Shown here: positions 2-6,307 of the stretch, one piece after another
Position numbering within the stretch: position 1 is the first letter of the stretch
Layout of the letters: every line of letters begins with the position of its first letter
Assembly: GCA_014859905.1 (NCBI GenBank)
Contig: JACZKT010000009.1
Coordinates: 1-55,215 of the forward strand
Length of the DNA stretch: 55,215 nucleotides
Source of the DNA: Rubrivivax sp.
GTDB taxonomy: Bacteria > Pseudomonadota > Gammaproteobacteria > Burkholderiales > Burkholderiaceae_C
Direction of reading: 5' to 3'
The notes under the pieces: model-generated
What the model was told of the DNA's origin: nothing
What the model saw: the letters and a program-made list of their open reading frames with translations, nothing else
Database searches by the model: none
Program-made: the position numbers and the translations under genes

Positions 2-61
2 GCGGCGCTGAACATGGCGCTGCAGCAGCGCCGCCCCGCCGGCGTCATCCATCACAGCGAC
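2..61 (+). pseudogene. IS3-family transposase (OrfB), left part of an interrupted DDE domain
   Basis: Frame 2 reads AALNMALQQRRPAGVIHHSD; joins in frame to QGSQYTSVAFG at 1753 to restore the canonical HHSDQGSQYTS motif. Confidence 0.85.
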
Positions 62-70
62 AGTAAGAAT

Positions 71-310
71 GCCCAGGCCAGTTGCTCCTGGGCGGCCTGA
101 CCCTCACAGCGATGGACCGGCTGGGAGCTTGGTGCCGCAAGGTGCCCTGGGTGGCTTGACCCCCACTCCGATAGACCGCCAGCCGTGTCTTTCCCCGGAC
201 CTGTCGGCCACCCGGGAGCATCTTGCGGCGAGGCTTTGCCTAGCCGGTGCGTGTGACTCAAGAAGGGCCTGACGTCCTGTCACGTTACTGTCCTGTCCAG
301 CTTCGGTCTT
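71..310 (+). ncRNA. Candidate IS110 bridge RNA (ends approximate)
   Basis: 5' stem-loop GCCCAGG(71-77)/CCTGGGC(87-93); target guides 104-112 and 143-150; donor guides 261-268 and 285-290, all matching the element's own flanks or ends. Confidence 0.8.
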
Positions 311-352
311 GGCCAAGCCGTCTTCGTCGCAATCGAGCTTGGAGGCCCGTCC

Positions 353-1433
353 ATGGATGATCTTCTGCATGAAGCCGTCGGCGTTGTCGGGGGCGTCGAC
401 ACCCACAAGGATTTGCACGTCGCCGCTGTCGTCAATGAGCACGATCACGTCCTAGGCTGTCGGTGCTTCCCTACCACGCGGCAAGGCTACCGACAGATGC
501 TCCAATGGATGCGATCGTTCGGGGAGGTGATGCGCATCGGCGTTGAGTCGACGGGAACGTATGGTGCCGGTCTGCTGCGCCACCTGCAGGCGGTCGGCGT
601 CGAAGTCCTGGAGGTTACGGCGCCGGACAAGCAGGACCGTCGCCGACGTGGCAAGGACGACGATCTGGACGCCCAGAACGCGGCGCATGCGGCGTTCGCC
701 GGGAGGCGAACCGTCACCCCGAAGGCGCGTGACGGGATGGTCGAGTCACTGCGGGTTCTGAAGGCTTGCCGCAAGACCGCGGTGGCCGCGCGCAAGGTTG
801 CCTTGCAGATGGTTCACAACACCGTCGTCTGTGCGCCCGACGAGCTACGCGATGCCCTGCGCAAGTTGACGCGCATGCAGCTCATCAGAACCCTGGCAGC
901 CTGGCGGCCGGACCTGTCCGACTACCGCAATGTCGCCTCCGCGTACCGGATCAGTCTCAAGTCGTTGGGCCGGCGCTACCTGGAGCTGCACGACGAGATC
1001 GCCGATCTCGACGCGATGATCGGCGCGATCGTCGACGAATTGGCGCCAGCGTTGGTCGCGCGCAATTCGATCGGCAAGGAGTCCGCAGCGCAACTCCTGC
1101 TAACGGCCGGTGACAACTCGGACCGCATCCGCTCAGAGGCCAGCTTCGCCGCCCTGTGCGGCGTCAGCCCCGGTACCCGCCTCCTCGGGCAAGGTGACAC
1201 GGCATCGCCTGAATCGCGGCGGCGATCGAGCGGCCAACAGTGCGCAACACATCATCGCGATCGGCCGGCTGCGAACCGACGCCCGATCCCAGGTCTATGT
1301 CGCTCGGCGAATCGCCGAGGGACACTCGAAGCTCGAGGCGATCCGATGCCTCAAGCGCTACATCGCCCGTGAGGTCTACACTTTGATCCGCCGGCGAAGT
1401 CTGGAGATCGCCCAGACTCGCATCGCAGCCTGA
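353..1433 (+). pseudogene. IS110-family transposase, frameshifted at a CCCC run
   Basis: N-terminal GGVDTHKDLHVAAVV, GVESTGTYG, DDLDAQNAA; C-terminal PVPASSGKVTRHRLNRGGDRAAN lies in another frame (1110-1433). Removing one C from 1168-1171 restores VSPVPASSGK. Confidence 0.88.
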
Positions 1434-1752
1434 GGGCGGACCAGTTGCGGCCCTAGGCCGCGGGGTCTGGGGCTTGCCCCAGGGAAGGGCCCGTCCAGGG
1501 CCCGCAGCAGAGCTGTGGGCGTAGCCCAGGCGGGGGTCAAACTGATCAAGCAGCGCAGCGATCTTGGCGCCGTGATCAACGCCGCCCGCGGAGAACGGCG
1601 GCAGGCGTACCGCAGGGGCCGGTTCGCGTCCTGTTAGCGCATTTGCCTTCCGATTCGCTCCACCACCGCACGTCGGCGCTGAGTTCGCTGAGCTAACCAT
1701 GGCAGCTCCCACACTCGCGGCCGTCGAATAGCTTGACAAACAGAAGGGCGTC

Positions 1753-2148
1753 CAGGGCAGCCAGTACACGAGTGTGGCCTTCGGCGAACGTTGCAGGAAG
1801 ATGCGCGTGCGGCCATCGATGGGCACCGTGGGTGACGCCTACGACAACGCCATGGCCGAGAGCTTCTTCGCCACGCTGGAGTGCGAGCTCATCGACCGGC
1901 GCAGCTGGCCGACCAAGACCGAGGCCAGGCTGGCGCTGTTCACCTACATCGAGGGTTGGTACAACCCACGCCGCCGGCACAGCGCCCTGGGGCAGACCTC
2001 GCCGGCCAACTTCGAAAGGAAACACGACGACAAGATCCGCACACCACCATCGCGCGGTGAACACGGGATACCCACCGTCGGCGCTTGCGTGGCAGGCGCC
2101 ACGCCGCCGGTGGATATCCCTGCGCCTGAGCTCATCGAACCGACTTGA
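1753..2148 (+). pseudogene. IS3-family transposase (OrfB), right part
   Basis: QGSQYTSVAFGERCRKMRVRPSMGTVGDAYDNAMAESFFATLECELIDRR...YNPRRRHSALGQTSPANFE. Confidence 0.9.
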
Positions 2149-2859: not shown

Positions 2860-3085
2860 CACTTCATCGTACCGGTTCGGTCATCACAAACCGCCACCTC
2901 ACCAGCGAATAGAAGCGGATCTACACCAGCGCCAACAGGTTGCCGATGGGATCGCTGCACAGACTTGTGTGTGAAAGTTACCACAAGCAGTTCAGCCCTC
3001 GTGGCGTGGATGCCTGCCGGCATGCAGTTCGCTACTGATGTGCCGAAAGAGCCGTGGTGCCTGCACCTTCTATGCGCCTCCCGCG

Positions 3086-5029
3086 ATGCCTCGCTCCTCC
3101 ACGCAGCGCCTGACGGCGGCCTTGTTCTGCCTGGGTGCAGTGGCGGTCATTGCAACCAGTTCGTTGGCAACGGGACAGGGCATCAAGACCGACTCGATGC
3201 GGGCACTGGAAGCCAGCGTGCACAGATTTGCCGCCGCCCAGGACGACCCTGCGGGGACACTCGCTGGAGTTCTGCGCGACAAGAGGGAGGCCAAGGATGC
3301 TGAAACCTTGTTTTGGGGGCATCTTCTGGAGGCACGCATCCGGGGACTGCTGGAACAGCCGGTTGCGATGGATCATGCGCTGAAGGCTGCGGAGGAGCAG
3401 TTGAGGGCGTTGCCCACAGCCTCACCCTTGTACGGAATGGCTGTGCGGCTGCAGCGGCTGCAGTTGTCGACCCTGACAGGAAACATCGACTCGCTCCCTG
3501 AGCCGGTGCGCAGATTGGCAGGCGAGACTGCCGACGCGGGATCCTTGCGCCTGTCGTGCGAGGTCAAGATGTTGCGCGCATGGGTTGAGTCCGAGACTGC
3601 TATGGTCGATGAGGCATGGAGGGTCGCAGAACAAGCCTTGGCGTGCGCAAAGTCGTTGGAAGACCGCGAACTGACCGCTTCGGCATATCTGCAAATGGGA
3701 TTGTTGGCCCGGGGGACGTCCGCCGGCGCATCGGCCAGGCGGACCGCGTACCGCTACTTCCGGCAGGCGGAAGATGCCCTCGGCGATCGTCCTGCGCGGT
3801 ACCTGCGCAGCATCATCGAATGGGAGTCGGGTAAGACCCTCGGACGCGACGCGCTCCTCGAGAGGGAGCGGCACTTTGAGCGGGCGCGCTCGCTCAGCGA
3901 TGCCATCGCCGACGAGGTTGGCGTTGCAGTCGCTTCGGTTGACCTCGCTGGTATTGCGCTTCAGCGCAGACAGTTCGCGAAGGCCGTCTCCCTGGCACGC
4001 GCGGCACGACGTGCCTACGAGCAGCACACGCTGATGCAGAGAATTCCGTCTACCTATGCAGTCACGATCGCCGCACTTGCGGCGACGAACTGGGAGGAGG
4101 CACAGAGAGAAATCGACAGAGCCAAGTCGCTAGACACAGAAAGGACGGCAACACGTGAGAGCGCCCGCCTTGCTCGGACGATCGGCGAGGCCTACGCGGC
4201 AAGGCAACGCTATTCAGAAGCCTATGCGGAACTGTCGAGGAGCGTAGAGCTTGAGGCCACCGCACGCCAGGAAGAGTCGTCAAGGCTGATGCTTCGATTG
4301 CAGGCCACCCACGAGGCGGCGCAACGAGAGGCAGAGAACTCGAGTCTGCTGCTGCGCAACGAGTCGACAAGGTTGCAGTTGGAAGCCGCCAGAGTCCGCC
4401 AGGAACGCCTGATGCTGGCGTTTGGACTGGCGCTTGTGGTACTACTCATCGGCGGCTTCGCCTTGGTGACAGTCGCGCGCGAGCGCCGAAGTCTGGCCGC
4501 CTTGGCGATGCGCGACGAGCTCACTGGCACGCCCAACCGACGCTCGATACGGGCCATTGCTGAGGCGCAGTGGGACCACTGCCGGCGTCTGAAGACTCCT
4601 CTACTCGTGGCCATGATCGATCTGGACCACTTCAAACGCGTCAATGATTCGTATGGCCACGCGGTGGGAGATCTGGTCCTCCAGGCGTTTGCCCAGGCGG
4701 CCAGCGCCGCGTTGCGTGCCCAGGACCGGATCGGGCGTTATGGCGGCGAGGAATGGCTCCTTGTCGCCCCGGGAGTCCTTCTGGAGGATGTCGACGCGCT
4801 CTTTAGTCGCATCCGTTCGGCGTTCGCGGCTCAGGTCATCCCCGGCCTGCCTAGGCCCCATATGCTCACGTTCTCGATGGGTGCCGCACTGGATCACGAA
4901 AGGCGCACGAGTCTGACCTCGTTGATCGAGGAGGCAGACGATTGCATGTACGAGGCGAAATCTGGCGGGCGGGACCGATTTCACTTCAGGTGCGTATTTC
5001 AGCCCATCGTGGACGGCATTTCAGGCTGA
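3086..5029 (+). CDS. Sensor diguanylate cyclase: TPR-like region, TM helix, GGDEF (GGEEW) domain; C-terminus altered by IS21 end
   Basis: RDELTGTPNRRSI, DLDHFKRVNDSYGHAVGDLVL, RIGRYGGEEWLL; last residues (FQPIVDGISG) are encoded by IS21-end repeats. Confidence 0.85.
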   Translation: MPRSSTQRLTAALFCLGAVAVIATSSLATGQGIKTDSMRALEASVHRFAAAQDDPAGTLAGVLRDKREAKDAETLFWGHLLEARIRGLLEQPVAMDHALKAAEEQLRALPTASPLYGMAVRLQRLQLSTLTGNIDSLPEPVRRLAGETADAGSLRLSCEVKMLRAWVESETAMVDEAWRVAEQALACAKSLEDRELTASAYLQMGLLARGTSAGASARRTAYRYFRQAEDALGDRPARYLRSIIEWESGKTLGRDALLERERHFERARSLSDAIADEVGVAVASVDLAGIALQRRQFAKAVSLARAARRAYEQHTLMQRIPSTYAVTIAALAATNWEEAQREIDRAKSLDTERTATRESARLARTIGEAYAARQRYSEAYAELSRSVELEATARQEESSRLMLRLQATHEAAQREAENSSLLLRNESTRLQLEAARVRQERLMLAFGLALVVLLIGGFALVTVARERRSLAALAMRDELTGTPNRRSIRAIAEAQWDHCRRLKTPLLVAMIDLDHFKRVNDSYGHAVGDLVLQAFAQAASAALRAQDRIGRYGGEEWLLVAPGVLLEDVDALFSRIRSAFAAQVIPGLPRPHMLTFSMGAALDHERRTSLTSLIEEADDCMYEAKSGGRDRFHFRCVFQPIVDGISG

Positions 5030-5128: not shown

Positions 5129-6307
5129 ATGCCAACCAACAGAGTCACGATGCGACAAATCCGAGAGACATTGCGCCTGCACCTGCAGGCCGGGCTGAGC
5201 TACAGCGAGGTGGGCCGCGCGCTCAAGATCTCCAAGAGCGTGGTGGGCAAGTAGGTCACCCTGGCCCGTGTGGCCGGCGTCGACTGGGACACCGCCCAGA
5301 CCCTCAGCGACGAAGACCTGGAGGCCCGGCTGTACCGCCCGGCGCTGCCCCGCGGCAGCCACCAACTCGCCCCCGACCTCAGCGTCGTGCACCAGGAGAT
5401 CAAGCGTCCCGGCGTCACCCTGATGCTGCTGTGGGAGGAGTACGCCACCGGTAATCCGCTGGCCTACAAGTACACGAGTTTCTGCATCAAGTAACGCGAG
5501 TTCGCGCTGCGCCAGCAACGCTCGATGCGCCAGATCCACATCGCCGGCGAGAAGCTGTTCGTCGACTACGCCAGCTCCACCGTGCCCATCGTCGACGCCG
5601 CCACCGGCCAGATCACCCAGGCCCAGATCTTCGTGGCCACGCTCGGGGCATCGAGCTACACCTATGCCTGCGCCACGCCGCGCCAGACCACTGCCGACTG
5701 GATCGGCGCGCAGGTGCAGGCGCTGGAGTTCATCGGCGGCGTGCCACGCCTGATCGTGCCCGACCAGACCCGCTCGCTCATCAAGACCCCCGATCGCTAC
5801 GACCCCGAACCCAACCGTACCTACGAGGAATTTGCTCGTCACTACGGCTGCGCGGTGCTGGCAGCGCGCCCGGCGCACCCGCGCGACAAGCCCAAGGTCG
5901 AGGGCTCGGTTTTGCTGGTACAGAGGTGGATCCTGGCCCGGCTGCGCAACCGCCGCTTCTTCAGCCTGGCCGAGCTGAACAGGGCCATCGCCGAGTTGCT
6001 CGCCGATCTCAACAACCGGCCCTTCAAGAAGCTGCCCGGCTGCCGTCGCAGCGCCTTCGAGTCGCTCGACGCGCCGGCGCTGCGGCCCATGTCGCTCCAG
6101 CGTTATGTCGTCAGCCGCTGGAAGACTGCCAAGGTCCACATCGACTACCACGTCGAGTTCGAGGGCCACTACTACAGCGTGCCGCACCGGCTCGTCGGCG
6201 CCAAGATCGACGTGCGCGTCACCGGGCAGTTGCTGGAGTGTTTCGCGTCGAACCAGCGCGTGGCCGGCCACGCCGTCGGGCCGGTATGGGTCGGTTGCAC
6301 CCGGTGA
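5129..6307 (+). pseudogene. istA: IS21-family transposase IstA with two in-frame stops and a replaced C-terminus
   Basis: One frame throughout: MPTNRVTMRQIRETLRLHLQAGLSYSEVGRALKISKSVVGK* (TAG 5252) ...SFCIK* (TAA 5492) [27 protein letters not shown]...[13 protein letters not shown]; canonical IstA end lost after about 6280. Confidence 0.88.

Follow-up and report, generated by a model that had tools for sequence, protein, structure and literature searches.

How does an element that finds its insertion site with an RNA read a target whose spelling varies, and which segments of the RNA do the reading? The question is raised by an insertion sequence at positions 62–1752 of a 55,215-nucleotide stretch of Rubrivivax sp. 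DNA (here the window: positions 1–55215 of contig JACZKT010000009.1 in GCA_014859905.1, a 724-contig assembly that is 86% complete). Judged by comparison with its relatives, the element belongs to the IS110 group and, within it, to the ISEc21/ISMch6 clade. Its leader probably encodes a two-headed bridge RNA in which one left guide can replace the other, with two left guides, one right guide and two mutually exclusive helices. On balance we also favor, with less assurance, the view that this RNA is bistable, a single transposon RNA alternating between two address sets and covering degenerate spellings of one motif.

An earlier note, made from the letters of the window, had read the left end as an IS110 bridge RNA with four guide segments, and all four of its matches are present: 104–112 (TCACAGCGA) equals 52–60 in the same sense, 143–150 (TGCCCTGG) is the reverse complement of 1752–1759, 261–268 (AGAAGGGC) equals 1742–1749, and TTACTG at 285–290 is the reverse complement of 61–66. 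By simple arithmetic, the number expected by chance in one ~290-nt leader is ~0.001 for the same-sense 9-mer, ~0.004 for each 8-mer and ~0.07 for the 6-mer; jointly, therefore, the four matches are not due to chance. The bridge RNA in the left end, the order of target loop then donor loop, and the polarity (left guides same sense, right guides antisense) were borne out, as was the idea that this copy was installed by a guide it still carries, which fits the first of the two left guides below. Relatives support three of the four segments as guides, namely that left target guide and both donor guides; the fourth, 143–150, fails, and the single left target guide has to be replaced by two. The features on which the argument depends are as follows.

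50–61, plus strand: left target half, CAT CAC AGC GAC (His-His-Ser-Asp, interrupted IS3 transposase)
62–1752, plus strand: element assigned to the IS110 group, ISEc21/ISMch6 clade, single copy in the genome
105–113, plus strand: left target guide 1 (LTG1), CACAGCGAT, fitting its own target at 9/9 positions including one U-G wobble
164–172, plus strand: left target guide 2 (LTG2), CACTCCGAT, homologous to the ISEc21 guide
190–198, plus strand: shared right target guide TTTCCCCGG, then AC (199–200), complementary to the donor end GT (putative handshake position)
254–268, plus strand: left side of the donor loop, frame TGACTCA plus left donor guide AGAAGGGC, the guide being equal to the right end at 1742–1749
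285–292, plus strand: right donor guide TTACT plus GTC, whose complement GAC-AGTAA is the left junction
1753–1774, plus strand: right target half, CAG GGC AGC CAG TAC (Gln-Gly-Ser-Gln-Tyr)

Joined in frame, the flanks read AALNMALQQRRPAGVIHHSDQGSQYTSV..., translated HHSDQGSQYT, and match the Pfam integrase core (rve/rve_3); the insertion therefore interrupts the HSD motif of an IS3-family transposase at its Asp codon. Species genomes, when scanned, yielded 80 relatives at 69–84% identity, and plasmid matches came to 1,579 records, mostly from Klebsiella and Escherichia. Among the elements (given L numbers here), L036 from E. coli is 98.7% identical to an annotated ISEc21 copy that interrupts an IS3-family element, and L089 is ISMch6 of Methylorubrum extorquens CM4. 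The transposase nests with those of ISEc21 and ISMch6 in a quick tree of 98 elements, some forks of which are open. The flanks form [HNYQ][STAG]D|xG in 75 of the 86 elements that have both, so that insertion at the codons of the second Asp of the IS3 DDE motif is shared across the clade. L009, L064, L090, L031, L033 and L072 have flanks that do not form the usual IS3 motif and are possibly off-target, rearranged or repeat-mediated copies. Because the codons around the second D have been published as the target of ISEc21, and ISMch6 as an ISEc21 relative redirected by three bases (PMC11187229), neither the clade membership nor the target type is new.

What appears to be new is the second left guide. 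In the leader alignment (66 leaders first, then 85), the frame TGACYC-N-[nine-base guide]-GACC occurs twice 5' of the donor loop, at 105–113 and at 164–172, and the donor guide is itself preceded by the same TGACYCN frame. LTG2 is universal in the aligned leaders and corresponds to the ISEc21 guide in both position and sequence; the three bases changed between ISEc21 and ISMch6 (PMC11187229) fit LTG2, from CACAGCGAT to CACTCTGAT. LTG1 was scored over 93 usable elements and is carried by 57. Full-text literature searches, with preprints and supplementary files outside their scope, found no earlier description of a second guide.

Comparison with the relatives shows both left guides matched to real sites. 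In the 57 dual-guide elements the left target of the copy itself is fitted better by LTG1 in 29 and by LTG2 in 26, with two ties; the better guide pairs at a mean of 8.23 of nine positions, against 7.46 with targets permuted (0/5000; this and our other permutation tests ignore the relatedness of the elements), and the other guide at ~6.2–6.4. LTG1 agrees with the target type in 29/29 of the LTG1-class relatives. Elements with an AGY-type LTG1 and a TCN-type LTG2 lie at nine AGY, 12 TCN and no Asn-Thr-Asp targets; with an Asn-Thr LTG1 and a TCN-type LTG2 the counts are none, seven and 17, respectively. Identical leaders occur at both site types, L005/L104 within one genome and L149/L150 within one strain, as do the L055 and L058 leaders, which are less than 1% different. 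The earlier note had named the same guides at unrelated targets as what would refute its reading, and L006, L028 and L058 do share LTG1 while their sites misfit it; those sites, however, fit LTG2. Family-wide genome searches added few elements, with two new leaders: L160 is dual and obeys the same rule (LTG1 8 versus 6), and in the other only LTG2 was recognized. The transposase tree requires at least 17 changes of guide class and at least nine in the possession of LTG1. The better guide is mismatched at position 3 in 23 of 91 cases, at position 6 in 43 and at position 9 in 38, all of those at position 9 being U-G wobbles, and at any other position in three or fewer; positions 3, 6 and 9 are the third codon positions of the target, a pattern that points to selection for reading a protein motif at the level of DNA.

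Some leaders depart from the common guide types. In L062 the LTG2 slot is occupied by an Asn-Thr guide and the LTG1 slot by a mixed one, and L045, L149 and L150 have AACAGCGAC in LTG2, the L150 site reading AACAGCGAT; these four hold guides in transition. Six others (L012, L013, L014, L020, L069 and L154) have a decayed LTG1 segment that retains traces of the frame (e.g., TGATCC, CGGCAC), a pattern that repeated loss of the second guide would produce.

Could LTG1 instead be a relic, or a regulatory element that switches transcription, processing or translation via the helices described below, with LTG2 alone guiding, loosely, and the LTG1 fit a by-product of the few spellings of the IS3 motif? 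ISEc21 works without LTG1, a 58-nt RNA being sufficient (PMC11187229), and several lineages have lost LTG1. We nevertheless consider this explanation unlikely: within the LTG1 class the LTG1 type equals the target type without exception, Asn-Thr-Asp sites occur in dual elements only with one guide of the Asn-Thr (AAC...) kind, and permuting targets among dual elements worsens the fit to LTG1 (0/5000). LTG2 alone would also leave two to four mismatches at LTG1-type sites, mostly outside third codon positions, which is rare in single-guide elements.

Both left guides appear to share one right target guide. The segment at 190–198, before GAC-GTC, tracks the right targets in all dual elements (p = 0.0005), in the LTG2 class (p = 0.001) and in elements without LTG1 (p = 0.018). 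The region of 143–150, which the earlier note had taken for the right target guide, does not (LTG1 class, p = 0.47; all dual elements, p = 0.06); the real guide is 190–198.

The donor loop pairs with both element ends. In 95 of 98 elements the match between right donor guide and left end is exact, and the two covary through three compensated states of left end and guide (AGTAA/TTACT, AGTCA/TGACT and AGCAA/TTGCT). AGAAGGGC is found in both the right end and the leader of almost all relatives, and the left donor guide gives no covariation because it hardly varies. Each right guide is followed by a dinucleotide complementary to the other partner, AC to the donor GT (199–200) and TC to the target GA (291–292); these dinucleotides would correspond to the handshake positions of IS621 (PMC11208158), a correspondence read here from sequence only.

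How a single right guide might serve two left guides is suggested by the pairing of the leader, the relevant parts of which are the following.

71–93, plus strand: local 5' hairpin, 71–77 with 87–93, predicted in the free fold of the window leader and competing with helix 1
84–101, plus strand: 5' strand of helix 1, pairing with 203–219 and ending in the TGAC frame of LTG1
115–124, plus strand: 5' side of the arm that in conformer 1 separates LTG1 from the right guide, pairing with 179–189
146–160, plus strand: 5' strand of helix 2, pairing with 203–216, with outer pairs 135–138 with 225–228
203–219, plus strand: shared 3' strand GTCGGCCACCCGGGAGC, partner of helices 1 and 2

The bases 5' of LTG1 and those 5' of LTG2 pair with this one 3' strand in the same register (z 6.7 and 8.9), with controls near zero when G-U pairs are counted. 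Over 51 dual leaders, helix 1 has 17 pairs, with 93.9% of cells paired and 11/17 pairs changed on both sides, and helix 2 has 18 pairs, with 95.8% of cells paired and 12/18 changed on both sides; these paired percentages and covariation scores were reached by 0/500 shuffles for either helix, and sliding the partner strand by one to three columns left only 30–53% paired. Mean duplex energies are -26.6 and -21.5 kcal/mol for helices 1 and 2, respectively. The arm 115–124/179–189 also covaries (mean -9.2 versus -7.7 kcal/mol when permuted, 0/300), and a comparable helix 1 is missing in elements without LTG1. Since both helices use one strand, they are mutually exclusive. Support for a local hairpin around LTG1 is weaker (z 2.9 versus 6.7 for helix 1), and a conserved GNRA hairpin considered at 131–146 was dropped, covariation placing 135–138 and 146–160 in helix 2.

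These helices also bear on a second alternative, in which the leader would hold two full, separate tandem target loops, 105–113 with 143–150 and 164–172 with 190–198. In the window, 143–150 pairs with the right target at 8/8 positions. We regard such an arrangement as improbable, however, since in the dual relatives it is 190–198 and not the region upstream of LTG2 that tracks the right targets, and the stem strand of LTG1 pairs with the shared 3' strand. Most of 143–150 lies in the 5' strand of helix 2, and 146–150 is paired and covarying there, which by the folding check proposed in the earlier note refutes 143–150 as a guide. In the window copy alone this segment may still have a role, because it fits the right target there better than 190–198 does (7/7 versus 5/7). 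A third explanation, that poorly fitting copies were carried by their IS3 host or had their flanks swapped by recombination between IS3 copies, is very unlikely although the targets are mobile and often multicopy and IS3-type genes are annotated beside several copies, since flanks acquired by a swap would not fit the second guide almost without exception.

Several observations weigh against a left-guide swap as we propose it. The better fit of 143–150 in the window copy is one, and the weak tracking of right targets by 190–198 in the LTG1 class (p = 0.08) is another. Relatedness limits the counts: some traits have no more than two or three changes on the tree, there being just two in LTG1 type within the LTG1 class and two in left-end state. 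The free fold of the window leader favors helix 2 by ~16 kcal/mol, although the energy difference between conformers averages only 2.4 kcal/mol over the 51 leaders, and the guide used by a copy was not predictable from the helix energies (p = 0.36).

With these points taken into account, a two-headed RNA could work as follows. In the bridge RNA encoded by the left end, the donor loop would recognize the two ends of the element itself, and the target loop the codons that surround the second Asp in IS3-family transposases. The clade has this target loop duplicated in its 5' half, which consists of a stem strand, TGACYC, a left guide and GACC. LTG1 and LTG2 would alternate, both relying on a single right guide and a single 3' stem strand; helix 1 would present LTG1, and helix 2 would present LTG2. 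One element could thereby reach IS3 genes with Ser spelled AGY or TCN, or with Asn-Thr-Asp versus His-Ser-Asp; the window copy would have entered through LTG1. In cells the two helices would have to form in turn, and LTG1 would have to use the same right guide as LTG2; both points are inferred.

The arrangement resembles known systems in part. The RNA of ISEc21 is bound by its transposase and guides recombination (PMC11187229). That seekRNA is like the present one in its target at the second D of IS3 DDE transposases, its place in the left end, the order of a left (bottom-strand) guide then a right (top-strand) guide, a promoter formed from the joined ends and the lack of target duplication. 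ISEc21 differs in having only LTG2 (CACAGCGAT), with the LTG1 segment and helix 1 absent, and its transposase is ~73% identical to that of the window over the N-terminal part. ISMch6, whose transposase is ~79% identical over the N-terminal part, carries dual left guides, CACAGCGAT and CACTCTGAT, and is inserted at an HSD|QG site that fits LTG2; its LTG1 copy is unmentioned in the main text of PMC11187229. The bridge RNA of IS621 (PMC11208160, PMC11208158) likewise has left and right guides in a target loop, followed by a donor loop, with the same polarity and with handshake positions after the right guides, which in the window element are putative. IS621, however, has one target loop with a single left guide and a CT core; the window element has two left guides, and its target and donor have in common only the base immediately before the crossover (Y in the target, C in the donor).

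The ends and the coding part of the element agree with its placement in the IS110 group.

353–1433, plus strand: DEDD transposase gene, with a frameshift near 1171–1176, just 5' of the catalytic-Ser region
1434–1730, no strand assigned: additional ~290 bp in the tail, missing from nearly all relatives, part shared with L006
1731–1752, plus strand: right end, TTGACA (-35 box) through AGAAGGGCGTC, 21 bp identical in ten relatives

The junctions, which the earlier note had left unresolved, are set by comparison with relatives: the left end starts at A62 (AGTMA) and the right end finishes at C1752 (GTC; TTGACA...AGAAGGGCGTC). The target's Asp codon ends with C61, a position at which relatives have C or T; the right flank begins at 1753 with the first base of the next codon, and no base is duplicated at the element ends. 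The transposase is of the DEDD type with a C-terminal Tnp_20 domain; it matches PF01548 (E 2e-21), scores slightly below the cut-off for PF02371 (E 6e-4) because of the frameshift, and passes the NCBIfam model for IS110 RNA-guided transposases (144 bits versus a cut-off of 140). The relatives' reading frames are open; the window copy, to judge from its frameshifted transposase, is dead. As in the IS110 group, a long non-coding left end with the guides (~291 bp) is paired with a short right end (~21 bp after the transposase gene in relatives). The guides lie upstream of the transposase gene, not downstream as in the IS1111 group, and 1425–1760 contains no inverted repeats, which in the IS1111 group are subterminal. 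A genome search found one copy of the element.

The additional tail DNA at 1434–1730 separates the stop codon of the transposase gene from the conserved right end; nearly all relatives have ~21 bp at this place. L006 matches it over 117 bp at 85%; the segment had no plasmid match and a single copy in the genome, and terminal repeats were not found in it. An Rfam search of the window and a search of phage records gave no match, and no close relative was found in the same-genus genomes searched. The contig begins inside the IS3 gene, and the region is therefore a nest of broken mobile elements. Directly after the interrupted gene lies an IstB-like fragment (IS21 helper ATPase, C-terminal half only, 2170–2601), and an IS21 transposase fragment follows at 5525–6307; between the IS21 fragments is a GGDEF diguanylate cyclase with a long N-terminal region (3038–5029). 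Elsewhere, ISEc21-like DNA (query L036:2688-4069) occurs in 1189 of 5426 complete E. coli genomes; fragments are common, at least 80% of the element being present in only 491.

In published descriptions a bridge RNA has a single target loop and a single donor loop. If the two-headed reading is true, an element can widen its target range without losing its old address, a change of guide between clades (AGY, TCN, Asn-Thr) can proceed via an intermediate with two guides, and the leader is a natural model for designing bridge RNAs programmed for two targets. The covariation of the donor guide with the left end, for its part, bears on the open difference between the accounts of the ISEc21 group given by the seekRNA and bridge-RNA work.
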